A stretch of DNA of 64,000 nt from Actinoplanes lobatus (GTDB lineage: Bacteria > Actinomycetota > Actinomycetes > Mycobacteriales > Micromonosporaceae): NCBI RefSeq assembly GCF_014205215.1, contig NZ_JACHNC010000001.1:4903001-4967000 (forward strand). The letters run 5' to 3'. Within the stretch, counting starts at the first letter, position 1. Each line of letters begins with the position of its first letter. Below are positions 1-18,695 of this stretch, one piece after another. Both the position numbers and the translations under genes were made by a program. The notes under the pieces are model-generated. The model did no database searches. It was given only the letters and a program-made list of their open reading frames with translations, and was not told the DNA's origin.

Positions 1-392
1 ACCAGGTTGGTCCGCGGCACCGAGTCGAAGTAGAACCAGCCGCCCGGCCACACCAGCAGCGCGATGCCCAGGTGCGGCACCTTGACCTGCGGGCCGAGCC
101 AGGCGGTCAGGTGCAGGTTGGCGAAGCTGGCGCCCGGGTTGCCGATCCACGAGTGGACCAGCCAGTCGATCTCCGGACCGGAGTACGCCTCCAGGGAGCC
201 GCCGGGGCCGTCCGGGTAGCTGCCGTACGTCTGGAGACCCAGGGTGGACGGGTCACGCGTCAACTCGAACCGGGCGTCGATCTTCGCCTTCAAGTCGGCG
301 AGGAGTTGCCGGTAGAAGTTGAACGTGTCGTGCACGTCGATGGCCGGCGAGTTGTCGACCATGTCCTCTACGTGCTGGATCGTCTCGGCCAC
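1..392 (-). CDS. Red chlorophyll catabolite reductase-like protein, 3' part missing
   Basis: The gene runs off the left edge; about 130 N-terminal residues are visible. Two stretches resemble plant red chlorophyll catabolite reductase: a segment around residues 68-85 ending in DWLVHSWI, and a later VPHLGIALL...FDSVPRTNLV, which parallels the APNFLFEL...LDLPHRKDLV region. That family belongs to the ferredoxin-dependent bilin reductase superfamily, which reduces linear tetrapyrroles. The GTG at 392 was chosen because a GAAGG stretch sits about 8 bases upstream; a GTG at 401 is also in frame. It lies 76 bases downstream of the nitrilase-like gene on the same strand, so it is probably co-transcribed. 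The bilin or chlorophyll role is inferred from remembered family sequence only. Confidence 0.55.
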   Translation of the reverse strand, partial: MAETIQHVEDMVDNSPAIDVHDTFNFYRQLLADLKAKIDARFELTRDPSTLGLQTYGSYPDGPGGSLEAYSGPEIDWLVHSWIGNPGASFANLHLTAWLGPQVKVPHLGIALLVWPGGWFYFDSVPRTNL

Positions 393-2190: not shown

Positions 2191-2207
2191 GTTCCCCCTA
2201 GCGAAAC
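2191..2207. promoter_or_regulatory. Putative IclR operator, site A
   Basis: GTTCCCCCTAGCGAAAC fits GTTYC-N7-GAAAC and matches the site next to the iclR gene (10989-11005), including a CTAG core. It sits just upstream of the nitrilase-like start (2186) and about 80 bases before the divergent Dabb gene. A second overlapping palindrome, GAAAC-GGC-GTTTC, lies at 2203-2215. Confidence 0.55.
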
Positions 2208-2288
2208 GGCGTTTCCCAAAACTACACTTGGGTGCCACCTTCGCAACAGGTGTTTCTCTTGATGACAAAGATATTTTGGGGGCGCGCG

Positions 2289-2573
2289 GTGCTGGTGCAT
2301 GTCGTACTGATGAGGTTTGCCGATCCCGGGGATGCTGCCAAGGCGAAGTTGCGTTTGGAAGACCTTGGCGATGCCGTTCCGGAAATCCGTTCCCTGGAGG
2401 CCCACGTCGACGAGCTCCGCACCGAGGTCTCCTGGGATCTGCACCTGCGCACCACGCACCGCGACACCGACGATCTGCGCGCCTACCAGGCACATCCGGC
2501 CCATCTCGAGCTCGGCGCGTGGTTGCGCCCGCTGCTCACCTCACGCGCCGTCGTCGACTACACCCAACCCTGA
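2289..2573 (+). CDS. Dabb (stress-responsive A/B barrel) domain protein
   Basis: A small protein of about 94 residues that starts VLVHVVLMRF and contains the DLHLRTTHRDTDDLRAYQAH type segment of dimeric alpha-beta barrel (Dabb) proteins. Members include plant stress proteins and small cyclases or decarboxylases acting on aromatic or polyketide intermediates; many have no known role. The GTG at 2289 was chosen because a GGGGG run lies 7 bases upstream and the conserved domain starts there; ATG at 2262 is an in-frame alternative. It is divergent from the nitrilase-like gene and shares its AT-richer promoter gap and operator-like site, so it probably belongs to the same catabolic regulon. Confidence 0.7.
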   Translation: MLVHVVLMRFADPGDAAKAKLRLEDLGDAVPEIRSLEAHVDELRTEVSWDLHLRTTHRDTDDLRAYQAHPAHLELGAWLRPLLTSRAVVDYTQP

Positions 2574-2644
2574 TCCGTACGCGGAAAGCCGCAGCTCGCG
2601 CACGATTCCCGCGCTGACGGCCCGGTGGTGAACGGCGACGCGGG

Positions 2645-3445
2645 TCAGCTGTTCAGGATCTCGTAGATCCGGTCCTCGTCCGCGTCGCCCCGCTCGTCGG
2701 CCGGGGGCTCCTTCGGGGTCGGGGCCTTGCCGTAGTCGTCCAGCGCGATCCGGCACGTGCCCCCGGCCTGCCCGCCCACCGCCGGGATGTCGGCGGTCAG
2801 CGCGCTGAGCCGGCCCGCCGCGTCGACGCTCGCCGTGAACGGCACCGCCGCGGCCGCGTCCCCCAGCTTCCTGATCTTCTCGGCGGACAGCAGCAGGGTG
2901 CCGGTCGCCTTCGTCAGGTCGAGCGTTCCGGAATATCTGCGGTGCCCGGCCCGGGCCACCCCGTTCGACGCTTCGAGGAGTTTCGTGAGCTGGATCGGGT
3001 CGTGGTCGCCGCTGTCACCGACCGTGTTCCCGGACTCGGCGAAGTCATCGACCCGGGACGGGTCGAAGGCGATCCAGCCCGACGGCATGTCCAGCACCGG
3101 GCCGATCTCGGCCGGGGAGGTGACGACCCGGAACCAGGAGGACTCCGGCAGCAGCAGGACCCGCAGCGAGATGCTGGTCCCGGCCTCGGGGCCGGCTCCG
3201 GTGATCGCCATCGACATCGCCTGGCCCGCCCAGTCGACCACCCCTTCGGCCGAGTCGCAGGCGCTGCCCCCGAACGAGAACCGGTAGGCGGGCGTGCCCG
3301 GCCCCGGAATCGCCCCGACCAGTTCCTCGCCGGGCCCGAGCACCGGGTCGGCGATGTCGGACGCGTCGACCGGCGGTTCCAGCCAGGTGCAGCCGGCGAG
3401 ACAGAACGTCGCCGCCGCGACGGCGAACCCGCGGACCAGTTTCAT
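2645..3445 (-). CDS. Secreted lipoprotein, LppX/LprG-like
   Basis: A 266-residue protein with a type II signal peptide: MKLVRG, a hydrophobic stretch, then the lipobox LAGC at about residues 17-20, so it is anchored to the outer face of the membrane. The body has segments such as YSGTLDLTKATG and VPFTASVDAAGRLSAL, typical of actinobacterial LppX/LprF/LprG-like lipoproteins that bind lipids in a beta-sheet cup. The ATG at 3445 has AGGAG 6 bases upstream. It lies beyond the hairpin that closes the catabolic operon, so it is probably a separate unit. The ligand is unknown. Confidence 0.7.
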   Translation of the reverse strand: MKLVRGFAVAAATFCLAGCTWLEPPVDASDIADPVLGPGEELVGAIPGPGTPAYRFSFGGSACDSAEGVVDWAGQAMSMAITGAGPEAGTSISLRVLLLPESSWFRVVTSPAEIGPVLDMPSGWIAFDPSRVDDFAESGNTVGDSGDHDPIQLTKLLEASNGVARAGHRRYSGTLDLTKATGTLLLSAEKIRKLGDAAAAVPFTASVDAAGRLSALTADIPAVGGQAGGTCRIALDDYGKAPTPKEPPADERGDADEDRIYEILNS

Positions 3446-3610
3446 GAACGGCTCCTGGAAAGCGCAGGACTGTTGTCGGTGACCGGTCCGGCGGGTGGGA
3501 CCGACGACCCCGCCGGACCGGTGCCGGGACCGCGAACCGTGACCCACGCCCGGCGACCGCCCTCTCTTCGGCGCCCGGCACCGGGCCACGGTTCGCGGCG
3601 TCTCGGTGTT

Positions 3611-3636
3611 CCGTCATGCGGGCCCTCGCATGACGG
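3611..3636 (-). terminator. Hairpin closing the leftward catabolic operon
   Basis: A perfect 10-bp inverted repeat (CCGTCATGCG / CGCATGACGG, 6-base loop) starts 4 bases past the stop of the aldehyde dehydrogenase gene at 3640. There is no T-run, so it may be an actinobacterial-style terminator or an mRNA 3' stabiliser. Confidence 0.5.
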
Positions 3637-3639
3637 ACT

Positions 3640-5064
3640 TCACCCCGCGGGGTACGCCGACGGCCCGCCCCCGGTCACCGCGGCGCCCGGCCGGAACGCG
3701 GCCGGGGCGTGGATGACGCAGGTCTGGACGTATTCGGCGAGCCCCTCGTGGGCGTACTCGCGGCCCCAGCCGGAGCGCTTCACCCCGCCGAACGGGGCGC
3801 GCAGGCTCATGCCGGTGCGGTTGTGCGTGTTGACGAACGTGAACCCGGCCTCGAACCGCCGCGCGAACGCGAACGCCCGCTCCTCGTCGGCGCTCCACAC
3901 CGACGCGCCCAGCCCCAGCTCCCCGGCGTTCGCGGCGGCCAGCACCGACTCCTCGTCGGCATAGCCGAGAACCGGCACCACCGGCGCGAACTGTTCCGCG
4001 ACGACCAGCGGCGACCCCGGGTCCGGTTCCACGACGAGCGCCGGCCGTACGAAGTAGCCGCTCGCCGGATCCCCGTCGAACCGCCCGAGATCGTGCACGG
4101 TTCCGGAGTCGCGCAGGGCGAGCGCGGCCCGCTGGGCGGCACCCGAGATCACCGGGCCCATGGTCACGCCGTCGGCGAGCGGATCGCCGGTGACCAGAAC
4201 CCGGTCGGCGGCGGCCAGGTAGGCGCCGACGAACGCGGACAGCCGCGACGACGGCACGTAGAGCCGCTTCGCCGCCATGCAGACCTGCCCGCTGGTCGCG
4301 AAGGTGGCCATCACGAGCCGGTCCATCGCGTCGTCGGTGAACGGCGCGTCGTCCAGGAAGACGGCCGGATCGTTGCCGCCGAGCTCCAGGACGCTCGGGG
4401 TGAGCCGGTCGCCGGCCAGTGTCGCCACCGCCCGCCCGCCGGCCGCGCCGCCGGTGAACGCCACCTTCCGCACCAGTTCGTGCCCGACCAGTGCGGCGCC
4501 CGTCTCCGCCCCGCCATGCACCACCCGGACCGGCGCGTCGAAGAGGTCCACCACCCGCGAAATGGTCAGCGGCGCGAGCGGCGACGGTTTCACCACGATC
4601 GCGTTCCCGGCCGCCAGCGCCGGCGCGATCTTGAGCATGGCCAGGATGACCGGCGCGTTCCAGGGCGTGACGGCGGCCACGACACCGTACGGTTTCCGCT
4701 GCTCGACGATCCTGCCCAGGTCGTCGTCGAGCACGCGGTCCGCGTACGCCGAAGGGGCATGCTCGACCACCCACCGCAGATAGCGGACCGCGAAGCCCAG
4801 CTCACCGCGGCAGTCGCCGACCACCTTGCCGGACTCGCGCGCCAGAAGCGTGGCCAGCCCGGGCGTCGCGTCCTCGATCGCGGCGGCGACGCGCGCCAGC
4901 GCGGCCAGCCGGTCCGGCAATCCGCGTGCCGCCCATCCGCGCTGGTCCGCGTCCGCTTCGCGGACGATCAGGTCGACCGCTTCCGGCGCCGTTTCCCGAA
5001 CCACCCCGACGATCTCATCGGTACGGGCGGGATTCTCCCGGGCGATCGTCCCCGCCCCGCTCAT
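3640..5064 (-). CDS. NAD(P)-dependent aldehyde dehydrogenase
   Basis: A 474-residue aldehyde dehydrogenase superfamily protein that oxidises an aldehyde to an acid with NAD(P). The catalytic set is visible: Asn136 in TPWNAP, Glu227 in LELGG and the nucleophile Cys262 in SGQVCMAAKR. ATG at 5064 is preceded by GGGGGTG at good spacing. It is the last gene of the leftward operon, 89 bases after the FAD hydroxylase gene, and is followed by a hairpin. In context it likely oxidises an aldehyde made by the operon's oxygenases or by the PEP-mutase-family lyase. It is a distant paralogue of the dehydrogenase at 7206-8639, so two different aldehydes may be handled. The exact substrate cannot be read from sequence. 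Confidence 0.9.
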   Translation of the reverse strand: MSGAGTIARENPARTDEIVGVVRETAPEAVDLIVREADADQRGWAARGLPDRLAALARVAAAIEDATPGLATLLARESGKVVGDCRGELGFAVRYLRWVVEHAPSAYADRVLDDDLGRIVEQRKPYGVVAAVTPWNAPVILAMLKIAPALAAGNAIVVKPSPLAPLTISRVVDLFDAPVRVVHGGAETGAALVGHELVRKVAFTGGAAGGRAVATLAGDRLTPSVLELGGNDPAVFLDDAPFTDDAMDRLVMATFATSGQVCMAAKRLYVPSSRLSAFVGAYLAAADRVLVTGDPLADGVTMGPVISGAAQRAALALRDSGTVHDLGRFDGDPASGYFVRPALVVEPDPGSPLVVAEQFAPVVPVLGYADEESVLAAANAGELGLGASVWSADEERAFAFARRFEAGFTFVNTHNRTGMSLRAPFGGVKRSGWGREYAHEGLAEYVQTCVIHAPAAFRPGAAVTGGGPSAYPAG

Positions 5065-5153
5065 CTGGTCACCCCCCGGGCCGGCCGTTGTGTGAGGAGA
5101 GCTCGGGTGAGCGGCCGTGGCGATGTGGGGAGGGCTCGGGGAACTGGGCGGGG

Positions 5154-6305
5154 TCATGCGGCGACCGGGCGCAGGGAGGCGATCATGGAGCTGCGCAGCA
5201 GGGACTCGCGGGCGCGGGCCGGGTCGGCGGCGATGGCGCGCAGGCCGTCGAGGTGGGCGGCGCGGGCGTCCGGGTCGGTGGCGCGCAGGCGCTCGTAGTT
5301 CTGGTGGGAGACGCTCTGCACGTATTCCAGGGCGATCCGCCGCCGGTCGGTGGCGGCCGCCCAGATCGCCGCGTCGTCGCCGGTCGCGATGGCGGCGGCA
5401 TAGGCGACGGCGTCGTGGATGCCGGAGTTCATGCCGAGCCCGCCGAGCGGGTTGTTGACGTGCGCCGCGTCGCCGGCGAGCAGGACCCGCCCGGTACGGA
5501 AGGACGTGGCGACCCGCTGGTGGACGCGGTACATGCTGGCGTGCGCCACCCGCCACGGCCGGCCCGGGTCGTGGACGCCGCGCAGGCGGGCGCCGAGACG
5601 CTCGTACTCCTGCTCGTCGGGCGTCTCGGACGGGGTGGGCAGCAGCACCCGCCAGTGGTCGGGGGTTCGCAGCAACACGCACCACTCGACTGGATCGAAT
5701 ACATAGTTGACGGAGGCAAGGTCGTCGAGCCAGTCAATGAGTTCCTCGTCGACCGATGCGACGAGAAAACGCTCGGGATAGGTGATGCCGTCGAAGGTGA
5801 CGCCGGTGGCCCGCCGGGTCGACGAGTGCGCGCCGTCCGCCCCGATCAGCCAGTCACCGTGGACGGTGCGGCCGTCGGCGGAGGTGACGGTGACCCCGCT
5901 GTCCTGGGCCACTTCGGTTACGTGGAAACCGAACTCGATCCCGAAGTTCTCGTACCGCAGCAGGTGGTCGAGCAGGATCGGGGTGAGCTTCGACTGCTCG
6001 CACTGCAACCGGTACGGAAAACGGGTGTCGTCACCGAGAACCGCCAGGTCCAGCATGGCGATCAGTCCCTCGCGCCGGTCCCGGTAGGCGAACGTGGGCG
6101 ACAGCAGCCCCCGCTCGTGCAGTTCGGCGCCGACGCCGAGATCGTCGAGCATCTCCAGGGTGGGCGGATGGAACGTGGACGCGCGGGACTCGGCGGCCAG
6201 CGCGTCCCCGGACTCGAGGACGGTCACGGCGAAGCCGCGCCGCGCCAGGGCCAGGGCCGCGGTGAGACCGACCGGCCCGGCGCCGGCGACCAGGATGCGG
6301 TTCAC
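5154..6305 (-). CDS. FAD-dependent aromatic-type hydroxylase (class A flavoprotein monooxygenase)
   Basis: A 383-residue protein of the p-hydroxybenzoate hydroxylase/MhpA/UbiH type, which uses NAD(P)H and oxygen to hydroxylate an aromatic or conjugated ring. FAD motifs are clear: GAGPVG at residues 8-13, GADGAHS in the middle, and GRVLLAGDAAHVNNPLGGLG near two-thirds of the length. The start is GTG at 6305, overlapping the stop of the lyase gene by four bases (GTGA), which indicates translational coupling. Length is typical of the short members that lack the C-terminal thioredoxin-like domain. It is the best evidence that the operon attacks a cyclic substrate. Confidence 0.88.
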   Translation of the reverse strand: MNRILVAGAGPVGLTAALALARRGFAVTVLESGDALAAESRASTFHPPTLEMLDDLGVGAELHERGLLSPTFAYRDRREGLIAMLDLAVLGDDTRFPYRLQCEQSKLTPILLDHLLRYENFGIEFGFHVTEVAQDSGVTVTSADGRTVHGDWLIGADGAHSSTRRATGVTFDGITYPERFLVASVDEELIDWLDDLASVNYVFDPVEWCVLLRTPDHWRVLLPTPSETPDEQEYERLGARLRGVHDPGRPWRVAHASMYRVHQRVATSFRTGRVLLAGDAAHVNNPLGGLGMNSGIHDAVAYAAAIATGDDAAIWAAATDRRRIALEYVQSVSHQNYERLRATDPDARAAHLDGLRAIAADPARARESLLRSSMIASLRPVAA

Positions 6306-7174
6306 GTCTGCAAACCTTTCGGTACGTAGCGGGCGTCGAGGTCGAGCGCCTCGTCCTGGCCGACCAGCGCGGTGAACGCGGCCCACGGCATCCGGTCGAC
6401 CGGTTCGGCGGTGCCGTGGTCGGCGATCGCCCGGTAGGTCAGCGACGCCGCCCGCATGGCGGCGAGCAGCGCGGACACCGGGTGCAGGACGAGACGGACA
6501 CCGGCCGCGGCGAGCTCGGCGTCGGTCAGGGCCGGGCGTTCGCCGCCGGCCTCGCTGCGGTTGACGACGATCGGTACGCCGGGGATCGCGGCACCGATGC
6601 GGGCGAGGTCGGCCAGGCTGTCCACACCTTCGGGGAACACCGCGTCGGCACCGGCCTCGGCGTACGCCCGGCAGCGCACGATCGTCTCGTCCAGGCCGAG
6701 GATCGAGTACGCGTCGGTGCGGGCGATCACCACGATCTGCGGCGCCTGATCGGCCAGGGCGGTGATCTTCGCGGCCGCCTCGCCGATCGGGATCACCTCC
6801 TTGCCGGCCAGGTGCCCACACCGTTTCGGGCTGACCTGATCCTCCAGGTGCAGCCCGGCGATCCCGGCCCGGGCGTACGAGAGCGCGGTCCACACCGCGT
6901 GCAGCGGGTTGCCGTACCCGGTGTCGGCGTCGGCGATCAGCGGAATGCCGCCCAGAGCCGGGACCAGGGTGGATGCCCGGTCGGCGATCTGGGTGGCGTG
7001 CACGAACCCGAGGTCGGGCCGGCCCAGCATGATCGCCGAGACGGCCGCGCCGGACAGGTGCACGGCCCGGTGGCCGGCCGCCACGGCGAGCGCCGCGGTG
7101 ACCGGGTCGTAGACGCCGGGCACGTGGGTGACCCGGCCGGACGCGAGAATCGCGCGCAGTGCGGTGGCAGTCAT
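6302..7174 (-). CDS. Isocitrate lyase/PEP mutase family protein
   Basis: A 290-residue TIM-barrel enzyme of the superfamily containing 2-methylisocitrate lyase, PEP mutase, oxaloacetate decarboxylase and carboxyvinyl-carboxyphosphonate phosphorylmutase. It has the metal-site segment ADADTGYGN (residues 81-89) and the flexible-loop motif KRCGH (117-121), whose cysteine is the catalytic acid in the lyases. The motif favours a C-C lyase over a P-C mutase. ATG at 7174 was chosen. It follows an aldehyde dehydrogenase by 31 bases and overlaps the hydroxylase start by 4. A lyase cutting a 2-hydroxy acid to an oxoacid plus a dicarboxylate fits the operon. Confidence 0.85.
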   Translation of the reverse strand: MTATALRAILASGRVTHVPGVYDPVTAALAVAAGHRAVHLSGAAVSAIMLGRPDLGFVHATQIADRASTLVPALGGIPLIADADTGYGNPLHAVWTALSYARAGIAGLHLEDQVSPKRCGHLAGKEVIPIGEAAAKITALADQAPQIVVIARTDAYSILGLDETIVRCRAYAEAGADAVFPEGVDSLADLARIGAAIPGVPIVVNRSEAGGERPALTDAELAAAGVRLVLHPVSALLAAMRAASLTYRAIADHGTAEPVDRMPWAAFTALVGQDEALDLDARYVPKGLQT

Positions 7175-7205
7175 GACTGGATCTTCCTCGCCTGAAAGAA
7201 ACCGG

Positions 7206-8639
7206 TCACGACCGGCTGTGCAGCGCGAAGCCGTTCTCCACACCGACCACGCGCGGGTTGGTGAAGAACAGCAGGGTCTCGGCGGTGCCCTCCTCCGAGT
7301 AGCCGGAGATCCCCCAGGCCGGACGGGGCGTGAACAGGTGCAGGCTCATGATCGAGGAACCGTTGACCTTCACCTCGCCGGCCCGGACCCGTTTCGCGAC
7401 GGCCAGGGCGGCCTCCTCGTCGGCGCCGAAGACGTAGCCCTCCAGGCCGTACCGGGTGCCGTTGGCCAGCGCCACCGCCTCGTCGACCGTCTGATAGCCG
7501 TGCACCGCGGCGACCGGGCCGAAGATCTCGTCGGTGGTGCGGGCCGGGTCGGCGCCGACCACCAGCGACGGCGCCAGGGTGTTGCCCGGGCCGGTCAGGG
7601 CGGATTCGAACAGGGTGCCACGCAGGTCGTCGCGGGCCTTCACCACGGTGGCCCGGTGTCCGGAATGGATCAACGGCCCGTAGTCGGTGGCCTCGTCGGC
7701 CGGGTCGCCGGTCCGCAGCCCGTCGATCCGGGCCAGCACCGCGGCGGCGACGGCCTCCTCCCGGCCGGCCGGGACGATCAGGCGGCCCAGCGCCCGGCAC
7801 CACTGCCCGTTCAGGGTGGTGAGCAGGTCGGCGGCGGCGCGGGCCACGGCGTCCTCGTCGGCGTCCGGTAGGGCGATCAGCGCGTTGTTGCCGCCGAGTT
7901 CCAGCTGCACCGGCTTGATGTCGTAGGCGCAGGCGGCCGCGACCGCCCGGCCGCCGCCGAGGCCGCCGGTGAACGAGACGGCCCGGATCCGCGGATCCGA
8001 GACGATCTGCGAGCCGACCGCGGCGCCGCCGTGCAGCAGCTGGAACAGCGCGGCCGGGGCGCCGGCCTCGCGCAGGACGGTGTCGATCACCTCGGCCAGG
8101 CGCTCGGTGCCGTACGGCGCGTACTCACTCGGTTTGAGGATGGTCGGGCAGCCGGCGGCCAGCGCGTTGGCGACCTTGTGGGCGGCCATCGGGGCCGGTG
8201 CGTTCCACGGGACCAGGCAGGCGGCCGGGCCCCAGGGGAGGCGTTCGACCAGCACCTCGCGGCCGTCCTCGCGGGTCGCCGTCGAGGTCAGGATGCCGGC
8301 CCGGAGCTGCCCGGCCGCCAGTGCGAACGCCCCGGCCAGGATCATGCCGAGCGGGGTGGTCTGCCGGATCGGGACGCCGGTGGCCCGCGACTCCAGCGCC
8401 ACGATCTCCGGTGCGGCGGCGCCGACCGCGGCGGCGATCCGGTCCAGGACGTCGGCACGGTCGGCGGCGGGCAGGTCCCAGGAGCCGAGGGCGTCCGCCG
8501 CGGCGAGCGCCTCCTTGACCCCGGCCCGGGACGAGCCGAGCGCCGGGCCGGTCACCTCTCCGGTGGCCGGGTTCTCCAGATCCACTCCTACCGGAATCGT
8601 GCACGCTCTCCACGTACCGTTGATGAGGTCTTTGGTCAT
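7206..8639 (-). CDS. NAD(P)-dependent aldehyde dehydrogenase
   Basis: A 477-residue aldehyde dehydrogenase with Asn146 in VPWNAP, Glu247 in LELGG and nucleophile Cys281 in NGQWCRALGR. Its ATG overlaps the stop of the upstream ACAD-fold gene by four bases (ATGA), so the two are translationally coupled. It differs from the dehydrogenase at 3640-5064 throughout, and so is likely not a recent duplicate. It presumably oxidises the aldehyde released by the preceding two-component oxygenase step; the substrate is not known. Confidence 0.9.
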   Translation of the reverse strand: MTKDLINGTWRACTIPVGVDLENPATGEVTGPALGSSRAGVKEALAAADALGSWDLPAADRADVLDRIAAAVGAAAPEIVALESRATGVPIRQTTPLGMILAGAFALAAGQLRAGILTSTATREDGREVLVERLPWGPAACLVPWNAPAPMAAHKVANALAAGCPTILKPSEYAPYGTERLAEVIDTVLREAGAPAALFQLLHGGAAVGSQIVSDPRIRAVSFTGGLGGGRAVAAACAYDIKPVQLELGGNNALIALPDADEDAVARAAADLLTTLNGQWCRALGRLIVPAGREEAVAAAVLARIDGLRTGDPADEATDYGPLIHSGHRATVVKARDDLRGTLFESALTGPGNTLAPSLVVGADPARTTDEIFGPVAAVHGYQTVDEAVALANGTRYGLEGYVFGADEEAALAVAKRVRAGEVKVNGSSIMSLHLFTPRPAWGISGYSEEGTAETLLFFTNPRVVGVENGFALHSRS

Positions 8640-9922
8640 TTGGCCACGCTCGCGAAGAGATCGTTCGCCCGGTTGCTGGTGATCACCGACGCGGCCTCCA
8701 GGCGCCCGCGCTCCGGCGGGAACGTCATGACCAGGCCCATCGCCAGGTCACGCAGGGCGCGGCCGACGGTGCCGTTCATTGTCGCGTTGGAGGTGCCGGA
8801 CGCCTTGAGGGCGCCGATCGCCACGTCGAACGCGGCCTGGCAGATGCTGCCCTTGGCGATGCGCCACTGCGCGTACACCTCGGATTTGGTGGCGATCGGC
8901 GGCTCGCACGTCTCCAGCAGCAGCTGGCGGCGCAGCCACAGGTAGGCCCGTTCCAGGTTCTCGGTCATGTCGCCGATGATCACCTGATGCATGGGCGACT
9001 CGGCGATCGGACGGCCCGTGTCGGCGAACGTCTTGCGGGTCAGCCGCTCCAGGGTGTCGTCGTAGACGCCCTGCGCCGCGCCCACGTAGACCGCCGTGAT
9101 GGCCAGCTGGTTGCCGACGAAGCTGCCGCGGCTGCACTGCAACATCTTCACGAACGCCCCCGGTACGGTGAGCGCGTCCTCCTGCGGGATGAACACACCG
9201 TCGAGCCGGATGCCGTGGTTGGCGCTGCCGCGCATGCCGAGCCCGTTCCAGAACGGCCGCTCGGTCACCCCCTCGGCGTCGCGCGGAACCAGGAACATGA
9301 CCAGCCCGTCGGCCGTCTCGTAGCCGTCCAGCCGGGCCGTGACCAGGTAGTAGTCGGCGATGCCGGTGGCGCAGCCGAACGACTTCTCGCCGGTCAGCTC
9401 CCAGCCCTTCACGCCATCCTTGACAAAGGGGACGGCGGTCGTGGCGATCGCGATGTTGGCGCCGCTCGACTTGACCGACTCGCTGGCGAAGTTGGCGAGC
9501 CAGGTGCCGCCGGACATCAGCCGCAGCACCTTCTCGGCGAACGCCTTCACGACCGGCGTCTCCTCCTCGGAGAACAGCCCGGACTCGATCGCCTCCAGCG
9601 GCAGCAGGCCGCGCGACGCCGACGTGTTGTGGAAGAAGAAGGCCAGCGCCGTGGACGGGCAGGCGCTGCCCATCGCGTACGTGGCGGCGGCCAGGTCCCG
9701 CAGGGTGCCGCCGAGCCCGCCGTACTCCCGGGGGACGATCAGGCCCATCAGGCCGGCGTCGCGCAGCAGCTCGATGTGCTCGCGCGGGAAGGCGCCGTCG
9801 GCGTCGGCCTGGTCGGCCTTGGCCCGCAGCGCCGGCAACACCTGCTCGACGAGGGCGGCCCGGGCCTTCTCCTCGACGGTCATGTCGTCGACGAGCTTCT
9901 CGCCGATGAGTCGGTCGGCCAT
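8636..9922 (-). CDS. Acyl-CoA dehydrogenase-fold flavoprotein, probable group D oxygenase
   Basis: A 428-residue protein with the three-part ACAD fold: N-terminal helices (IVPREYGGLGG near residue 60), a middle beta domain (GEKSFGCATGIADYYLV) and a C-terminal helical domain. The EGT-type segment that carries the catalytic base in true dehydrogenases is missing; that region reads ALRDLAMGLVMTFPPERGR. ACAD-fold oxygenases such as HsaA and DszC lack this base and use reduced flavin made by a separate reductase. The gene directly upstream (4-base gap) is a flavin reductase, which supports the oxygenase reading. A true dehydrogenase with an unusual base is possible but less likely. Confidence 0.72.
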   Translation of the reverse strand: MADRLIGEKLVDDMTVEEKARAALVEQVLPALRAKADQADADGAFPREHIELLRDAGLMGLIVPREYGGLGGTLRDLAAATYAMGSACPSTALAFFFHNTSASRGLLPLEAIESGLFSEEETPVVKAFAEKVLRLMSGGTWLANFASESVKSSGANIAIATTAVPFVKDGVKGWELTGEKSFGCATGIADYYLVTARLDGYETADGLVMFLVPRDAEGVTERPFWNGLGMRGSANHGIRLDGVFIPQEDALTVPGAFVKMLQCSRGSFVGNQLAITAVYVGAAQGVYDDTLERLTRKTFADTGRPIAESPMHQVIIGDMTENLERAYLWLRRQLLLETCEPPIATKSEVYAQWRIAKGSICQAAFDVAIGALKASGTSNATMNGTVGRALRDLAMGLVMTFPPERGRLEAASVITSNRANDLFASVAK

Positions 9923-9926
9923 GGTG

Positions 9927-10964
9927 TCACTCCCTGATGTGGGCGAGGTCGGGCGGGCCGGCGACCTCGAGTTGGCGGGACAGGTGGAGCAGGTCGCCCA
10001 GCGGCAGCCCGGACGATCCGGAGCCGGGGGCGACGACGTCGAAGTGCGAGACCCCGCTCTTCATCGCGACCAGTGCGTTGACCAGGGCGAGGCGGTTGTC
10101 GCCGGAGAGGCGGACGCGCAGGACGGCCGGGCGGGCCCGGACCGCGGCGTCCTGGAGCACCCGGCGGACCTGCAACGGCGAGGCCGGCACGACCAGCGAC
10201 TCGGCGCAACCGATCTCGTCGCAGCCGAGTGCGGTGAGGGCGGAGACCTCGGCGAGGACCTCGTCCTCACGGCCGGGGCCGAAGGCGTCGGTCACGTACC
10301 CGATGACGGTGGCGCCGGACTCCTTGGCGGCCCGGATGGCCGCCGGCGGGGGCGGGGCGTCGGCGGAGAACTCGAAGCAGTGCCCGTCGGCGCGGACCCG
10401 GGCCCCGGCCTTCCGCAGCGCGCCGGCCAGTGGGTCGTCGGCGGCCACGTCGACGGTGAGGTTCACCGAGGACGGCAGCGGGTCGGCGATCTGGCCCCAG
10501 TTGCGTGAGTGGAACAGCAGCGGCGAGGTGATCCGGGGCAGGGCCGCGTCGGTCACCGCGCCGACGAAGATGGTGTGGTCGCCGCCCGGGTACGCGTGCG
10601 CGACCGTGCAGTCCAGCCATGCCACCGCGTCACTGAGCACCGGGCACCCGTTCGCGGTGGTGGTCCAGTCCAGGCCGGCGAACCGGTTCTTGACGTCGCG
10701 CTCCTGCCCGGCGAACCGGCGGCCGATGTCCGCCTGGTCCTTGCCGAGGAAGCTGATCGCGAACTTGCCCGCCTCGCCGAGCAGCGCCCGGCTGGGCAGA
10801 TGGTTGCCCAGGCAGACCGACACGAGCGGCGGATCGAGGCTGACGGAGGAGAATGAACTGGCGGTCATCCCGTGCACGCCGTGCGGGCCCACCGTGGTCA
10901 CCACGCAGACGCCACTCGGCCACTGTCCGAGCACGGATCGGAAGGTCGTGCTGTCGACCGGCAC
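9927..10964 (-). CDS. Flavin reductase fused to a degenerate HMGL-like domain
   Basis: A 345-residue fusion. Residues 1 to about 165 are a flavin reductase (FMN-binding split barrel): VLGQWPSGVCVVTT, MTASSFSSVSLDPPLVSVCL, FAISFLG and HTIFVGAV are typical. It would supply reduced flavin to the oxygenase encoded next. Residues about 170-345 resemble the C-terminal half of HMG-CoA lyase-like barrels: a GCDEIGCAESL-like segment, then DNRLALVNALVAMKSGVSHFD. The HxHD metal ligands (here LSGDN) and the GGLGGCP loop (here APGSGSSG) are lost, so this half is probably non-catalytic or altered. GTG at 10964 is the first gene of the operon, about 25 bases from operator-like site B. Confidence 0.78.
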   Translation of the reverse strand: MPVDSTTFRSVLGQWPSGVCVVTTVGPHGVHGMTASSFSSVSLDPPLVSVCLGNHLPSRALLGEAGKFAISFLGKDQADIGRRFAGQERDVKNRFAGLDWTTTANGCPVLSDAVAWLDCTVAHAYPGGDHTIFVGAVTDAALPRITSPLLFHSRNWGQIADPLPSSVNLTVDVAADDPLAGALRKAGARVRADGHCFEFSADAPPPPAAIRAAKESGATVIGYVTDAFGPGREDEVLAEVSALTALGCDEIGCAESLVVPASPLQVRRVLQDAAVRARPAVLRVRLSGDNRLALVNALVAMKSGVSHFDVVAPGSGSSGLPLGDLLHLSRQLEVAGPPDLAHIRE

Positions 10965-10988
10965 TCGTACGCTCCGTTCCTGCGGACT

Positions 10989-11005
10989 GTTTCGCTCTAG
11001 GAAAC
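10989..11005. promoter_or_regulatory. Putative IclR operator, site B
   Basis: GTTTCGCTCTAGGAAAC is a perfect GTTTC-N7-GAAAC inverted repeat in the gap between the leftward operon and iclR, about 25 bases upstream of the flavin reductase start. Its position fits control of that operon and autoregulation of iclR. Confidence 0.6.
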
Positions 11006-11029
11006 GTCGTTACGCTGAACGTAACGACG
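11005..11029. promoter_or_regulatory. Perfect 10-bp inverted repeat, variant operator
   Basis: CGTCGTTACG and CGTAACGACG are separated by 5 bases. The inner part reads GTTAC-N7-GTAAC, the same architecture as the neighbouring operators with one changed base per arm. It abuts site B. Confidence 0.5.
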
Positions 11030-11063
11030 CTCAAGGATCGTGTCAACCGCGGAACGGTACGGC

Positions 11064-11080
11064 GTTTCGCACCGCGAAAT
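11064..11080. promoter_or_regulatory. Putative IclR operator, site C
   Basis: GTTTCGCACCGCGAAAT matches GTTTC-N7-GAAAC at nine of ten arm positions. It lies 56 bases upstream of the iclR GTG start, a plausible place for autorepression. Confidence 0.5.
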
Positions 11081-11135
11081 GGCAGGCTAGAGTTCGGCAA
11101 AGTTTGTTCCGTACCTGTTCCGTGGGGGTTTCGCA

Positions 11136-11921
11136 GTGGCAGTGAGTGAGGACGAGGGCCAGTCCCGGTCCATCGCCGCGGTCGAGCGCGCGATGGACGT
11201 GCTGCTCTACTTCGGCCGCACCGATCAGCCCGATCTCGGGGTGACCGAGATCGCGACCGCGCTCGGTCTCACCAAGGCGGCCGTGCACCGCATCCTCACC
11301 GCGCTGCGCAGCCGAGAGCTGATCACCGTCGACCCGGCCACCCGGCGGTACGCGCTGGGCCACGCCGCAGTCGCCCTCGGCCGGGCGTACCTGGCCCGCA
11401 CCGACGTTCGCGCGATGGCCGCGCCCGAGCTCAAGCGCCTCTCCGAGCGCACCCACGAGACCGCCACCCTGTCGCTGCGCCGCGGCGACACCCGGCTCTA
11501 CGTGGACCAGGTCGTCCCCGACCAGGAGCTGCGCCTCGAGGTGAGCCTCGGCATCCCGTTCCCGCTCAACGCCGGCGCCTCGTCCAAGGCGTTCCTGGCG
11601 TTCCTGCCGGACTTCGAGGTCGACGCCTACCTCGCCCGGCACCCGCTCGAGGCGGTGACCGACAAGACCATCACCGACCCGGCCAAGCTCCGCAAGGACC
11701 TGGCCGCGATCCGCAAGCGGGGGTATTCCACCTCGCTCGGTGAGCGCCAGGCCGGGGCCGCGTCGATCGCCGCCCCGATCTTCGACCACGACGCCCGGGT
11801 GGTGGCCGTGATCAGCCTGGCCGGGCCGGCGCTGCGCTTCAAGGCGGACACCGAGGAGGCCGTCGCCGACCTCCTGGCCTCCGCGTCCCGGATCTCCGCG
11901 CAGCTGGGTTACCGGCCCTAA
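11136..11921 (+). CDS. IclR-family transcriptional regulator
   Basis: A 261-residue regulator. The N-terminal winged helix-turn-helix (residues about 10-75) includes LGVTEIATALGLTKAAVHRILTAL; the C-terminal effector domain (about 90-255) contains HETATLSLRRGD, PFPLNAGASSKAFLAF and the RKRGYSTSLGER stretch typical of IclR proteins, which sense small organic acids or aromatic intermediates. The GTG at 11136 directly precedes the conserved region. The gene sits between two large catabolic operons, and three operator-like repeats lie in its upstream gap. The same motif recurs at 2191 and 12635, so it probably controls the whole cluster. Its stop overlaps the convergent membrane-protein gene by four bases. 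Confidence 0.93.
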   Translation: MAVSEDEGQSRSIAAVERAMDVLLYFGRTDQPDLGVTEIATALGLTKAAVHRILTALRSRELITVDPATRRYALGHAAVALGRAYLARTDVRAMAAPELKRLSERTHETATLSLRRGDTRLYVDQVVPDQELRLEVSLGIPFPLNAGASSKAFLAFLPDFEVDAYLARHPLEAVTDKTITDPAKLRKDLAAIRKRGYSTSLGERQAGAASIAAPIFDHDARVVAVISLAGPALRFKADTEEAVADLLASASRISAQLGYRP

Positions 11922-12616
11922 AGGTTCGCGAAGGGCTTGGCCACGCCGAGAAGGCCGGCCAGCAGGACCGAACCCCAGATCACCCAGACGTACGGGAGGC
12001 AGCCGTTGACACTCTTCTTGACGGTTGCCTCGTCGTCGTCCCCGGCCGTGCCCGCCATCACCCTGCCGAAGAAGGCCGGGCCGAACGGTTTGAGCTGCCG
12101 CCGGATGCCCAGCCCCGCCGCGATCGCGAGGGCGTAGAGGATGACCTTGCCGCCCAGCCACTTCGGATTCGTGGTGACCCCGAACGGCTCGGCGGCCACC
12201 AGCGTGAAGACGCCCATGCCGAACATGCCGGCCACCACGGCGATCCGGATCGCCCAGTCGGCGCGCTTCACGGTCGGGTGCTTCCCCGGCTCGTGGTGGT
12301 CGGTCCACATCAGCCAGACCCAGACGAACGATCCGATCCATACCGGTACGAGCAGCCACCACGGCAGCAACCGGATCCCCCACAGCTCACCGCCGTGCGC
12401 GTCCAGTGAGATCAGTGTCAGGCCGCTGGGCAGGAAGAGGATGAGACAGATCTTCGGCCCGAGGTCCAGCCCCAGCATGATCTTCAAGGCGGTGAGCCGG
12501 GCGGCCGGGGTCAGCGAGGAGTCGATCACGTACCGGCTGGAGTAGAAGACTCCCAGGTCCCCGCCGAGCCAGAAGACCATGAGCACGATGTGCAGGTAGA
12601 GGAACGCTTCGAGCAT
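11918..12616 (-). CDS. Six-to-seven-pass integral membrane protein, CopD/DUF2269-like
   Basis: A 232-residue hydrophobic protein with roughly six transmembrane segments. The first reads LYLHIVLMVFWLGGDLGVFY, the pattern of CopD-like and DUF2269-type membrane proteins, in which helix histidines may bind haem or metal. Further conserved-looking stretches are LMWTDHHEPGKHPTVKRAD and GKVILYALAIAAGLGIRRQL. The gene is divergent from the MaoC operon with operator-like site D between them, so it may belong to the IclR regulon, and its stop overlaps the iclR stop by four bases. A role as transporter or electron carrier for the pathway is possible but unproven. Confidence 0.7.
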   Translation of the reverse strand: MLEAFLYLHIVLMVFWLGGDLGVFYSSRYVIDSSLTPAARLTALKIMLGLDLGPKICLILFLPSGLTLISLDAHGGELWGIRLLPWWLLVPVWIGSFVWVWLMWTDHHEPGKHPTVKRADWAIRIAVVAGMFGMGVFTLVAAEPFGVTTNPKWLGGKVILYALAIAAGLGIRRQLKPFGPAFFGRVMAGTAGDDDEATVKKSVNGCLPYVWVIWGSVLLAGLLGVAKPFANL

Positions 12617-12634
12617 GGGGTAGATGGAAACACC

Positions 12635-12651
12635 TTTCCACTGTACGAAAC
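12635..12651. promoter_or_regulatory. Putative IclR operator, site D
   Basis: TTTCCACTGTACGAAAC matches GTTYC-N7-GAAAC except for the first base. It lies in the 53-base divergent gap between the membrane-protein gene (12616) and the MaoC operon (12670). A partly overlapping palindrome, GGAAA-CACC-TTTCC, lies at 12626-12639. Confidence 0.5.
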
Positions 12652-12669: not shown

Positions 12670-13140
12670 ATGCTCGGCCGCTATTACGAAGACTTCACCG
12701 TCGGTGACACGTACCGCCACCCGTTCGGCCGCACCATCTCCGAAGCGGACAACACGTGGTTCACGCTCCTGACGCTGAACACCAACCAGAGCCACTTCAA
12801 CGCCGACTACGCAGCGCGTACGCCGTACCGGAAACTGCTGGTCAACTCCACCCTCACGGTCGCCATCGTGACCGGCCTGTCGGTGCCGGACGTCAGCCAG
12901 CACGCCTTCGCCAACCTCGGCTGGGAACAGATCAACATGCCCAGCCCGGTCTTCGTCGGCGACACCATCTACGCCAAGTCCACGGTCCTCGACCTGCGCG
13001 AATCAAAATCGCGGCCGTACGCGGGCATCGTCAAGGTCTTCACCACCGGCTTCAACCAGGACGGCGTCGACGTCATCACCTGGACCCGCACCATGCTCAC
13101 CTACAAGCGCGGCCACGGCCCCTCCTCCGAGGTCTCGTAG
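12670..13140 (+). CDS. MaoC-family hydratase (itaconyl/mesaconyl-CoA hydratase-like)
   Basis: A 156-residue hot-dog fold protein and first gene of the rightward operon. It begins YYEDFTVGDTYRHPFGRTIS, followed by EADNTWFTLLTLNTNQSHF with the Asp/His pair that activates water in MaoC hydratases, then LGWEQINMPSPVFVGDTIY. This layout is that of the mesaconyl/itaconyl-CoA hydratase group (for example the MaoC protein beside CitE in the mycobacterial leucine/itaconate locus), which hydrates an enoyl-CoA of a branched dicarboxylate. The stop TAG is directly followed by the ATG of the LLM gene. With the CaiB and CitE proteins of this operon it could complete a three-step C5-dicarboxylate route. Confidence 0.82.
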   Translation: MLGRYYEDFTVGDTYRHPFGRTISEADNTWFTLLTLNTNQSHFNADYAARTPYRKLLVNSTLTVAIVTGLSVPDVSQHAFANLGWEQINMPSPVFVGDTIYAKSTVLDLRESKSRPYAGIVKVFTTGFNQDGVDVITWTRTMLTYKRGHGPSSEVS

Positions 13141-14223
13141 ATGCGCCTCGACGTGCAGCCCTGGGGCGAGACGATGGCCGAGCTGGTCAGCGCCGCCCGG
13201 GCCGCCGAGACCGCCGGCGCCGGCGTCGTCTGGGCCCCCGAGCTGCACCGCAGCGCCTTCGTAACAGCCTCCGCACTCGCCGCCGGAACCGGCAAGGACG
13301 CCGGTGGTCACTCTCGCATCGGCATCGGTACGGGCATCGCGCTCGCCTTCGCCCGAAGCGCCATGCTGACCGCGCTCGCCGCCGCCGACCTCGACGAACT
13401 GTCCGAAGGCCGGTTCCGGCTCGGCCTCGGCACCGGGGTGGCCCGGCTCAACCAGGACTGGCACGGCGTCTCCTTCGACCGGCCGCTGCCCCGGCTGCGT
13501 GACACGGTCGCCATCGTCCGCGCGGTCCTGGCCGGCGGCGACCCGATCGTCCACAAGGGGCTCCGCTCGATCCGGGTGCGCGGCTGGCGGCGGCCCTATC
13601 CGGCGGTCCGCCCGCACCTTCCGATCTATCTGGCCGGGGTCGGGCCCGGCATGGTCGCGCTCGCCGGTGAGGTCGCCGACGGGTGGATCGCCCACGAGCT
13701 GTGCCCGCCCGCTGAACTGCGTGAACGCATCTGGCCGGCGCTGCGTTCCGGCCTCGCCCGTTCCTTCTCTGCGGGCTTGCCGGCCGCGGGCTCCTCCTCT
13801 GCGGGCTCCAGTTCGGCTGCGGCCCGTCTGGTGCCTGGCTTCGACGTGGTCGCCGCCGCCTGCTGCTCGGTCGACAACGACGCGGCCGCCGCCCGCCGGC
13901 GCGCCGCCAACGTGGTCGGCTTCTACGCCTCGGTCCGCTCCTACGCCGACATGTTCGGCGCCGCCGGATTCGCCGACGTCTGCGAGGCCGCCTCCGAAGC
14001 CCTGCGCTCCGGCCGCCCCGCCGACTCCCTCGGCGACCTGATCCCCGACGCGATGGTCGACGCCTTCACCATCGCCGGAACCCCCGCACACTGCGCCGCC
14101 CGGATCCTCGAATACGACGGCCTGGCCGACGCGATCAAGCTCTCCCCGCCCTCCTACGGCCTGCCCGCCGACGAGGTACGGCACGCCCAGAACCGCCTGC
14201 TCGAACTCGTCGGGAGCATGTGA
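13141..14223 (+). CDS. LLM-class flavin/F420-dependent oxidoreductase
   Basis: A 360-residue luciferase-like monooxygenase-fold protein. Typical segments are AARAAETAGAGVVWAPELH near the N-terminus, RIGIGTGIALAFARSAMLTA, the DELSEGRFRLGLGTG stretch and YPAVRPHLPIYLAGVGPGM. In actinobacteria this branch mostly uses coenzyme F420 to reduce or oxidise substrates, though FMN members exist. A low-complexity insert, GLPAAGSSSAGSSSAAA (about residues 215-231), interrupts the barrel. The ATG follows the MaoC stop with no gap. Its redox step within the pathway is not clear from sequence. Confidence 0.85.
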   Translation: MRLDVQPWGETMAELVSAARAAETAGAGVVWAPELHRSAFVTASALAAGTGKDAGGHSRIGIGTGIALAFARSAMLTALAAADLDELSEGRFRLGLGTGVARLNQDWHGVSFDRPLPRLRDTVAIVRAVLAGGDPIVHKGLRSIRVRGWRRPYPAVRPHLPIYLAGVGPGMVALAGEVADGWIAHELCPPAELRERIWPALRSGLARSFSAGLPAAGSSSAGSSSAAARLVPGFDVVAAACCSVDNDAAAARRRAANVVGFYASVRSYADMFGAAGFADVCEAASEALRSGRPADSLGDLIPDAMVDAFTIAGTPAHCAARILEYDGLADAIKLSPPSYGLPADEVRHAQNRLLELVGSM

Positions 14224-15668
14224 TGAGGCCACTCGAGGACATCCGCATCGTCGCCGTCGAACAGTACGGCGCCGGCCCGTTCGGCTCGGTCCACCTCGCC
14301 GACCTGGGCGCCGACGTCATCAAGATCGAAGAACCGGGCACCGGCGGCGACGTCGGCCGCTACGTGCCGCCCTACCAGCACGGCGAGGACTCGCTGTTCT
14401 TCGAGACGTTCAACCGCGGCAAACGCTCGCTCTCCCTCGACCTGGCGTCCCCCGCCGGCCGCGAGGTCTTCGAAGACCTGGTACGCCACTCCGACGCCGT
14501 CTACTCCAACCTCCGCGGCGACGTGCCCGCGAAGATCGGCATCACCTACGACCAGCTCAAACACATCAACCCGAGCATCGTCTGCTGCTCGCTGACCGGC
14601 TTCGGCATGACCGGCCCGCGCGCCGCCCAGCCCGGCTACGACTACATTCTCCAGGGCCTCGCCGGCTGGATGGAGCTCACCGGCGAACCGGGCGGCCCAC
14701 CCACCAAGTCCGGCCTGTCCATCGTCGACTACTCCGGCGGTTTCGTCGCCGCCATCGCCCTGCTGGCCGGAGTCCACGCGGCCCGCCGCGACGGCCACGG
14801 CATGGACTGCGACCTGAGCCTCTTCGACACCGCGGTCGGCATGCTCACCTACCCCGCGGCCTGGCACCTGAACGCCGGCTTCGAACCCGCCCGGACCCGC
14901 TACTCCGCCCACCCGTCCCTGGTCCCGTTCCAGCTGTTCCCCTCGGCCGACGGCTGGGTCGTGGTCGGTTGCGCCAAGGAGAAGTTCTGGCACCGCCTGG
15001 TCGCCGTCCTCGAAAGCGCACCTACCCCGGACACCCCCGCCGGACCATCGAATTCCGCCGGTTCGGGTGGCGCCGACCCGAGCGTCTCCGCTGGGTGGAG
15101 TTCCGCCGGTTCGGGTGGCGCCGACCCGAGCGTCTCCACTGGGTGGAGTTCCGCCGGTTCGGGTGGCGCCGACCCGAGCGTCTCCACTGGGTGGAGTACC
15201 GCCGGTTCGGGTGGCGCCGACCCGAGCGTCTCCACTGGGTGGAGTACCGCCGGTTCGGGTGGCGTCGCGCTGAGCGATCCGCGGTTCGCCACGTTCGCGG
15301 ATCGGCGCACGCACGCCGACGTGCTGCTTCCGCTGCTGGAGGAGATCTTCGCGACGCGGGCGACCGCCGAGTGGCTGGCCCTGCTCGAACCGGCCGGCAT
15401 CCCGTGCGGGCCGGTCAACGACGTGGCGGCCGCGTTGCGTGATCCGCACACCCTGGCGCGCGGGCTCGTCGTGGAGACCGAACATCCGCATTACGGCACC
15501 GTGCGCCAGGTCGCGTCGCCGGTCCGGGTGGGCGACGCGCCGCCGGCCTACCGCCGCGCTCCGCGCCGGGGAGAAGACCTGGGGTACGTCGCCGAACTCC
15601 TCGGCTACTCCGACACCCGCTTGACTGAACTACGTTCCTCCGGCGCCTTCGGCAAGGCCCCCGAGTGA
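14223..15668 (+). CDS. Family III CoA-transferase (CaiB/BaiF type) with a repeat insertion
   Basis: A 481-residue protein that moves CoA between acids, probably from succinyl-CoA or another thioester to a pathway acid. Family hallmarks are PLEDIRIVAVEQYGAGPF, ADVIKIEEPGTGGDVGR, NRGKRSLSLDL and GFGMTGPRAAQPGYDYILQG, where the aspartate of GYD is the expected acyl-anhydride residue. About 70 extra residues (roughly 265-350), made of SSAGSGGADPSVSTGW repeats, split the protein before the C-terminal segment SDPRFATFADRRTH, explaining its length above the usual 390-420. The ATG overlaps the LLM stop by one base. Itaconate or a similar diacid is a reasonable substrate guess. Confidence 0.88.
   Translation: MRPLEDIRIVAVEQYGAGPFGSVHLADLGADVIKIEEPGTGGDVGRYVPPYQHGEDSLFFETFNRGKRSLSLDLASPAGREVFEDLVRHSDAVYSNLRGDVPAKIGITYDQLKHINPSIVCCSLTGFGMTGPRAAQPGYDYILQGLAGWMELTGEPGGPPTKSGLSIVDYSGGFVAAIALLAGVHAARRDGHGMDCDLSLFDTAVGMLTYPAAWHLNAGFEPARTRYSAHPSLVPFQLFPSADGWVVVGCAKEKFWHRLVAVLESAPTPDTPAGPSNSAGSGGADPSVSAGWSSAGSGGADPSVSTGWSSAGSGGADPSVSTGWSTAGSGGADPSVSTGWSTAGSGGVALSDPRFATFADRRTHADVLLPLLEEIFATRATAEWLALLEPAGIPCGPVNDVAAALRDPHTLARGLVVETEHPHYGTVRQVASPVRVGDAPPAYRRAPRRGEDLGYVAELLGYSDTRLTELRSSGAFGKAPE
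15054..15264. repeat. In-frame 48-bp minisatellite in the CoA-transferase gene
   Basis: Four full copies (15054-15101, 15102-15149, 15150-15197, 15198-15245) and a partial fifth encode the 16-residue unit SSAGSGGADPSVSTGW. Copies differ at only one to three bases, indicating recent expansion. Confidence 0.95.
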
Positions 15669-18240: not shown

Positions 18241-18695
18241 CGCTGCTGACTCCGGAACTGGCGGCGCGGATCGGGGAGGAGCGGGTCTACACCGCGCCGG
18301 AACCGCTGGGCCGGGCCGCGATCCGCTACTTCGCGCTGGCCACCGGCGACACCGACCCGGCGCACCTGGCCGGCGACGTGGCCCCGCCGACGCTGATCTG
18401 CGAGACCAACCAGTACGCCGGCCTGCCCCGTGACGCCGACGGCTACGCCGGTCACGGGTGGCATCTGGACGTACCGGGCACCCGGTTGGTCCGTGGCGGA
18501 AACGCCTACCGTTTCGAGCGCCCGGTCGGCCCGGACGACGTGATCACCGCCCGCTGGAAGCTGGCCGACATGACCGAGCGGGTCACCGGCGGTGGCAAGA
18601 CGATGCTGATCGTCACCTCGGTCGCCACCTACACCGACCAGGCCGGCCGCGTCCTGGCCGTCAACGAGGAGACGCTGATCTATGTCGCTCGTTAG
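18237..18695 (+). CDS. MaoC-like dehydratase subunit, N-terminal-domain type
   Basis: A 152-residue hot-dog protein of the FAS1-like/MaoC-N type: LGRAAIRYFALATGDTDPAH, VAPPTLICETNQYAG, then RLVRGGNAYRFERPVGPDDV. The catalytic loop with histidine is absent; in HadAB- or ChsH-type hydratases this half binds the acyl-CoA while the partner supplies catalysis. The next gene overlaps it by 14 bases and encodes that partner. GTG at 18237 overlaps the RidA-like stop by four bases. Confidence 0.8.
   Translation: MTLLTPELAARIGEERVYTAPEPLGRAAIRYFALATGDTDPAHLAGDVAPPTLICETNQYAGLPRDADGYAGHGWHLDVPGTRLVRGGNAYRFERPVGPDDVITARWKLADMTERVTGGGKTMLIVTSVATYTDQAGRVLAVNEETLIYVAR

Follow-up and report, generated by a model that had tools for sequence, protein, structure and literature searches.

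The survey of IclR-family binding sites by Suvorova and Gelfand (2021, PMC8222616) describes sites of the forms GTTYCRYW3RYGRAAC and TGRAACAN1-2TGTTYCA; 32 orthologous groups have three-box sites, and 94 groups have tandem sites 18–22 nucleotides (nt) apart. It also gives three-box operators with an external half-site repeat for PcaU and PobR of Acinetobacter, whose boxes are of the GTTCG/GTCCG type and which serve protocatechuate and 4-hydroxybenzoate use, and an operator core, GAAACGNCGTTTC, for KdgR of the gamma-proteobacteria. Here we analyze a 64-kb stretch of the 10.4-Mb genome of Actinoplanes lobatus (the window, positions 4903001–4967000 of its contig; short coordinates below are window positions), in which an inverted repeat recurs in promoter gaps of catabolic operons around an iclR gene. 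The operator architecture found here is of an already described IclR-family kind. We put at about 0.88 the probability that the repeats are operators of the IclR protein encoded at 11136–11921, a binding predicted from sequence, through which the protein would repress its own gene and the catabolic promoters until released by a compound of the pathway.

A first-pass annotation of this DNA had reported a 17-bp inverted repeat at five positions, and all five are present:

2191: inverted repeat, GTTCCCCCTAGCGAAAC
10989: inverted repeat, GTTTCGCTCTAGGAAAC
11009: inverted repeat, GTTACGCTGAACGTAAC
11064: inverted repeat, GTTTCGCACCGCGAAAT
12635: inverted repeat, TTTCCACTGTACGAAAC

The pattern GTTYC-N7-GRAAY has five strand-matches in the window, at three places (2191, 10989 and 11064), against a shuffle mean of 0.30, and none of 100 window shuffles reached five. 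The repeats at 11009 and 12635 are weaker than these three, needing two mismatches from GTTTC-N7-GAAAC; because that threshold yields 15 window matches where 8.3 are expected, they would not stand out alone. The repeats are genuine and exceed chance expectation by a wide margin. All five lie, as had been claimed, in divergent gaps: nitrilase/Dabb, flavin reductase/iclR and membrane protein/MaoC, the last two delimited by our own open reading frame (ORF) caller and the first by way of a Pfam match for Dabb.

The single 17-bp repeat had been taken as the unit, and we reject it as such: scanned alone against the genome the pattern is unspecific, with 56 forward and 55 reverse matches. The common unit is instead GAAAC-N3-GTTTC-N7-GAAAC, of which the 17-bp repeat is two of the three arms, and the operators are three-box or tandem. 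With up to one mismatch the three-box form occurs at five places in the whole genome, all within about 42 kb (4872284–4914013) and every one in a gap before genes:

4872284: three-box site, 0 mismatches
4881633: three-box site, 1 mismatch
4885205: three-box site, 1 mismatch
4905191: three-box site, 1 mismatch
4913989: three-box site, 1 mismatch

A scan of the window and 80 kb of flanking chromosome found boxes paired at an exact 20-bp period at 10989/11009, at 2191/2211 (the second member weak) and, outside the window, at 4881633/4881653. The corresponding tandem 37-bp form, with up to three mismatches, has three places in the whole genome, all inside the cluster region. When two mismatches are allowed the three-box pattern gives 13 rows genome-wide, nine of them within 4872284–4915651, overlapping readings of one tandem operator being counted as separate rows. 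The outlying places, with two mismatches, are 1995311, which falls inside called coding sequence, 4186738, 4491180 and 4863174. Judged by eye without a family search, 4186738 and 4491180 are intergenic, far from the cluster and beside membrane-protein-looking genes, and 4863174 precedes a lipase-looking gene. A backward-read control pattern, unmatched for base order, gave 5 + 1 matches at up to three mismatches versus 36 + 30 for the pattern itself. Within the window the operators are:

Operator D, 2191..2227, minus strand: GAAAC-GCC-GTTTC-N7-GGAAC (2191–2215) plus a weak fourth box; nitrilase and Dabb promoters
Operator E, 10989..11025, minus strand: tandem 17-bp inverted repeats 10989 and 11009 with 20-bp period, three-box reading 10989–11013; oxygenase operon promoter
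Operator F, 11056..11080, plus strand: three mismatches, contains the 11064 repeat; iclR promoter
Operator G, 12627..12651, plus strand: GAAAC-ACC-TTTCC-N7-GAAAC, two mismatches; membrane protein and MaoC promoters

Nor is the regulon self-contained at 2191–12651, as had been proposed. To the left of the window, as far out as 31 kb, there are at least three more three-box operators, and a regulon confined to the window is rejected on that account. Operators A–G, in six gaps, would delimit a regulon of some 55 kb, roughly 4870424–4925546, from an isochorismatase-like gene outside the window on its left to a CitE-like gene inside it, its operon limits being predicted.

In the survey (PMC8222616) the closest classes are the GTT-11-AAC group, for the arms GTTYC/GRAAC at N7, and group 2, for the GRAAC-N3-GTTYC spacing; three alternating boxes and tandem centres 20 nt apart (published, 18–22 nt) are further likenesses, and the resemblance rests on operator architecture, not on a matched orthologous group. 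In our pattern counts the GTT-11-AAC arm match follows by construction. The inner RYWWWRY can be compared over 181 sites at up to one mismatch, where the second base (Y 0.76) and the sixth (R 0.79) fit, the first (R 0.47) and seventh (Y 0.58) fit poorly, and the W positions stand at 0.73, 0.58 and 0.73. The sites here differ from group 2 (PMC8222616) in the flank bases, and they agree in part with the inner RY..RY bases of the GTT-11-AAC group. Relative to PcaU and PobR the three-box order with its external half-site is shared, with GAAAC/GTTTC boxes here, and the KdgR core is two of the three boxes found here (PMC8222616), the role of KdgR, pectin use, being unlike that of the present regulator.

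The regulator itself belongs to the IclR family and falls below the cut-offs of the named subfamilies:

11136..11921, plus strand: IclR-family regulator, PF01614 155.5 bits (cut-off 24), PF09339 48 bits (cut-off 22)

It scores 146.2 bits against the PcaR/PcaU/PobR model (TIGR02431, cut-off 284.75) and 129.4 bits against KdgR (NF011671, cut-off 275). Its best NCBIfam model is BhcR, at 184.2 bits where NF045644 has a cut-off of 350. BhcR is associated with beta-hydroxyaspartate cycle genes.

We collected related loci as the best 80 of 102 from one IclR protein scan (68–98% identity, 18 genera by record title, including Actinoplanes, Catellatospora, Micromonospora, Nonomuraea, Actinomadura, Nocardia and Streptomyces); among named organisms, Actinoplanes species supply the nearest orthologous loci, with A. 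flavus at 98%. The helix-turn-helix segment TKAAVHRIL is invariant in 80/80 orthologs. A search of the 300 bp upstream of iclR gave a best site of at most two mismatches in 63 of the 80 loci, compared with 29 of 800 control segments, which were drawn ten per locus at offsets from the same ten seeds and some of which contain true sites; such a site precedes iclR in one or more loci from 16 of the 18 genera. At up to two mismatches the 80 loci hold 336 site readings, 331 intergenic and five coding, and intergenic DNA by our ORF caller is 152,612 of their 1,574,215 bases (9.7%). Ten permuted-arm patterns gave four matches in all versus the 336.

These counts bear on whether the motif is a chance or structural artefact, mimicked by overlap with Shine-Dalgarno sequences, by terminator hairpins or by a dispersed repeat. 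The left arm of repeat 2191 does overlap the likely nitrilase Shine-Dalgarno AGGGGG (2194–2199, minus strand; nitrilase start 2186), there is a terminator-like site at 2236–2252, and the pattern matches in one genome, G103, are near-identical scattered stretches. The shuffles, the permuted arms and the intergenic placement speak strongly against such an artefact, and seven sites inspected by eye have no obvious common flanks; we regard this explanation as extremely unlikely.

Promoter counts by gene family follow the same lines. Families were assigned by BLAST to the cluster, a copy was taken as operon-first when no same-strand gene lay within 60 bp upstream, and a site of at most two mismatches was sought within 300 bp. 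Operon-first copies with a site were:

nitrilase 36/36, Dabb 21/21, amidohydrolase 15/15, CitE 8/8, RCCR1 4/4
MP914 (membrane protein) 41/43, CaiB2 15/16, MaoC1 12/13, flavin reductase 40/44, CaiB1 15/19
iclR 63/79, HMGL 12/17, oxygenase 5/7, cyclase 3/6, isochorismatase 2/7
PEP mutase-like lyase 1/14, ALDH1 0/14, MP897 0/8, WxLIP 0/7
PrpD2 0/6, LivF 0/6, FAD oxygenase 0/5

The zero-scoring families mostly stand inside gene runs in the A. lobatus genome. The same gene pairs keep their sites despite altered gene order, for example CaiB2/amidohydrolase in Micromonospora and Nocardia loci.

Regulator and operators also occur together in a sample of 200 genomes of the family (the window's own genome included in both counts). 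An IclR match at E 1e-60 is present in 45 of the 200, and in 35 of these it reaches at least 69% identity; operators at up to one mismatch are present in 44, and three or more of them in 30. Three or more operators are found in 29 of the 35 genomes with an IclR of at least 69% identity versus 1 of the 165 others (Fisher p 6.5e-28, a value that ignores shared ancestry; the 69% line was set after the list was seen); with E 1e-60 as the line the counts are 29/45 versus 1/155. The sole exception among the 165, G103, has five sites and no IclR at E 1e-60, its nearest being 45% identical. Because its sites are on five contigs and four of them are near-identical 25-bp stretches (L158, L160–L162), they are probably a dispersed repeat and no operator set; the genome was kept in the counts. 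In G064 the IclR relatives are 55–59% identical and two sites lie 7–13 kb away from them.

Another DNA-binding protein, for instance a different IclR, might bind the sites and leave the neighbouring iclR a bystander. IclR paralogs are common, with 2 to 13 matches at E 1e-20 per genome in four genomes, and motifs of the GTT-11-AAC type are common to many IclR proteins (PMC8222616). That proposal is highly improbable given the co-occurrence of sites with the iclR ortholog and the site that precedes iclR in most of the 80 loci; in addition, no second IclR was seen by eye among the 34 proteins called in 4866875–4905186, of which 22 were also Pfam-scanned. The first-pass reading is supported in part: the sites fall in promoter gaps shared between genes and, in other genomes, accompany this regulator and the same genes. 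It fails in its motif unit and regulon limits. The observation was sound and its reading largely right; both motif and extent were drawn too narrowly.

For the way in which the IclR protein acts, we propose that the operators, in which GAAAC/GTTTC half-sites follow the three-box order and an occasional fourth box sets two 17-bp repeats 20 bp (two helical turns) apart, would be bound on one DNA face by two regulator dimers or a tetramer. The window operators appear to cover the likely −10/+1 region or to end just before the likely −10. Operator E covers the TACGTT that follows TTGACA at 17 bp:

11018..11046, minus strand: predicted promoter of the leftward oxygenase operon, TTGACA 11046–11041, 17 bp, TACGTT 11023–11018 inside operator E, by eye

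Operator D contains TAGTTT and the nitrilase Shine-Dalgarno, and operators F and G end 6–7 bp before TAGAGT and TAGCTT, respectively; all these −10 placements were made by eye under a loose TANNNT rule. With the TAGCTT standing 6 bp upstream of the MaoC ATG, the MaoC message may be leaderless. Since the operators cover or abut the likely −10/+1, the regulator most likely blocks RNA polymerase when no inducer is present; a pathway compound would release it, and repression would most likely operate at the promoters in all six gaps.

PcaU and PobR act as activators, and the present IclR protein on the same operators could likewise switch the operons on with inducer. Both of these IclR-family members have three-box operators, and repressors, activators and dual regulators all occur in the family (PMC8222616). 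The placement of the sites makes an activator unlikely: in the window the operators overlap or abut an inferred −10/+1 or ribosome-binding site (by eye), where a bound activator would be obstructive, and over the 80 loci operator centres most often lie 20–40 bp from the start codon.

Several observations weigh against repression by this IclR protein at these operators. The operator at iclR itself, F, is a weak three-box site at three mismatches, and a strict sigma-70 consensus scan of the three window gaps returned no promoter. Flank bases expected of group 2 are rare, with T before the first box at 0.06 and A after the second at 0.09 among the 181 sites. The pattern was drawn from the window's sites, which introduces some circularity into the own-genome counts; those from the 80 loci and from the remaining 199 genomes are free of it. 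The loci are not independent of one another, 19 of the 80 being Nocardia, 12 Actinomadura and 8 Catellatospora. Six of the 35 regulator-bearing genomes have fewer than three sites at up to one mismatch (G029, G037, G164, G167, G188 and G198), G167 carrying weaker sites before iclR. Finally, 9 of the 80 loci have no site at all at up to two mismatches. In eight of those nine a PEP mutase-like gene was called next to iclR, and an oxygenase/flavin reductase pair was absent from the calls; one siteless locus (L052) ends at a contig end and one (L055) retains an ALDH1 match.

Ten loci (L046, L048, L050–L052, L055, L078, L099, L102 and L120) have iclR orthologs 72–92% identical, the PEP mutase-like neighbour and no oxygenase/flavin reductase pair called. 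Operators at up to two mismatches are absent in eight of the ten, and these loci may be a core or a relic of the regulon.

The genes that would stand under the predicted operators are:

Operator A: isochorismatase-CaiB1 on one side, HMGL-AMP ligase-cupin-acyl-CoA oxidase on the other
Operator B: amidohydrolase on one side, CaiB2-cyclase-PrpD1 on the other
Operator C: WxL proteins and a Liv-type ABC importer
Operator D: nitrilase-RCCR1-hydrolase-Rieske-RCCR2-lipocalin-like-SDR-Amdase run on one side, Dabb on the other
Operator E: oxygenase run
Operator F: iclR
Operator G: membrane protein on one side, MaoC-CoA run on the other

The cyclase (4882879), LivF (4890468) and the small Liv-region genes were labelled by eye without a family search. 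Within the window the genes and gene runs are:

3..392, minus strand: RCCR1 (RCCR-like), window part, PF06405 61.1 bits; the remainder lies left of the window in L023
468..2186, minus strand: nitrilase-superfamily (CN hydrolase) protein, PF00795 147.9 bits
2289..2573, plus strand: Dabb (stress-responsive A/B barrel) protein, PF07876 59.6 bits; start read from the sequence, missed by our ORF caller
3640..10964, minus strand: leftward gene run, one operon by gene order only; aldehyde dehydrogenase, FAD monooxygenase, PEP mutase/ICL-like lyase, aldehyde dehydrogenase, acyl-CoA-dehydrogenase-fold oxygenase, flavin reductase
11918..12616, minus strand: membrane-type protein, no Pfam or NCBIfam family at E 0.001; shares operator G
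12670..22546, plus strand: rightward CoA gene run, one operon by gene order only; MaoC (RipB-like), LLM oxidoreductase, CaiB, PrpD, RidA-like, two MaoC, thiolase, acyl-CoA dehydrogenase, CitE-like lyase

Two regulated proteins belong to the RCCR/bilin reductase superfamily, which makes a tetrapyrrole breakdown product a possible substrate. RCCR1 falls in the RCCR family by sequence (PF06405 cut-off 24.9; PDB RCCR 3agb, E 2.3e-11). RCCR2 (L023:16628–17317) is below the PF06405 cut-off, at 16.7 bits, and is an RCCR by fold only: its model has a pLDDT (predicted local distance difference test) of 93.5, RCCR and bilin reductases are its first 43 PDB matches, and against plant RCCR 2zxk it gives E 2.2e-11 and a template modelling (TM) score of 0.76, with 16–18% identity to plant RCCR. 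Between RCCR2 and the SDR lies a protein of lipocalin-like fold, nearest to the DUF3598 protein 2o62 (E 2.3e-10; model pLDDT 74.8, a poorly modelled stretch included).

The regulon may encode an actinobacterial pathway, so far undescribed, for the mineralisation of open-chain tetrapyrroles or pyrrole/maleimide fragments, as breakdown products of chlorophyll or heme, under one IclR switch; we offer this assignment tentatively and think it on balance doubtful. Under it, the two RCCR/bilin-reductase-fold proteins, the Rieske oxygenase, the lipocalin-like protein, and the nitrilase and cyclic-amide type hydrolases would act first, CoA activation and C-C lyases would follow, the ABC importer would feed the pathway, and the inducer would be a pathway intermediate. 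A plain copy of the plant PaO-RCCR pathway is spoken against, because the cluster's one Rieske protein is VanA-like and not PaO-like, its only matches at E 0.001 being to PF00355 and PF19112 VanA_C, with none to the PaO family. Maleate isomerases carry two cysteines; the Amdase-family protein (L023:13582–14322) seems to keep only the second, and a maleate isomerase step was dropped from the pathway.

A literature search, with most subscription papers outside its reach, found no description of the cluster, regulon or pathway. The operator kind being known, the main interest lies in an uncharacterised pathway delimited by its regulon. Scattered catabolic operons become one regulon and one switchable unit, with limits readable from sequence in at least 16 genera, and the operators are exact targets for a binding test and for a reporter screen for the inducer. 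An inducer, if found, would name the substrate of a pathway with RCCR-like enzymes in non-photosynthetic soil bacteria, and the fate of chlorophyll-derived pyrroles in soil would then become testable.

Some minor features of the region complete the description. RCCR1 and RCCR2 are encoded in the same gene run, in an actinomycete that is non-photosynthetic. A database search with RCCR2 gave 1513 relatives at E 0.001; among the 120 listed, almost every organism name is that of an actinobacterium, and one entry is a Chloroflexi metagenome-assembled genome. Behind operator C (L023:2323–11551), WxL and WxL-interacting surface proteins stand beside the Liv-type ABC importer, and a similar WxL/Liv neighbourhood recurs in Actinomadura loci. 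The 841-residue proteins at window positions 24652–27177 and at 4864308–4866833 were considered as flanking paralogs and rejected as unrelated. In the flavin reductase (9930–10964) the C-terminal half weakly resembles HMG-CoA lyase, at 29.1 bits. Within the nitrilase gene, an 18-bp tandem repeat of 6.8 copies (921–1042) encodes a Ser-Glu-Thr-Gly-rich linker, and the stretch beyond the linker bears only a weak resemblance to a second CN hydrolase domain (E 0.062).

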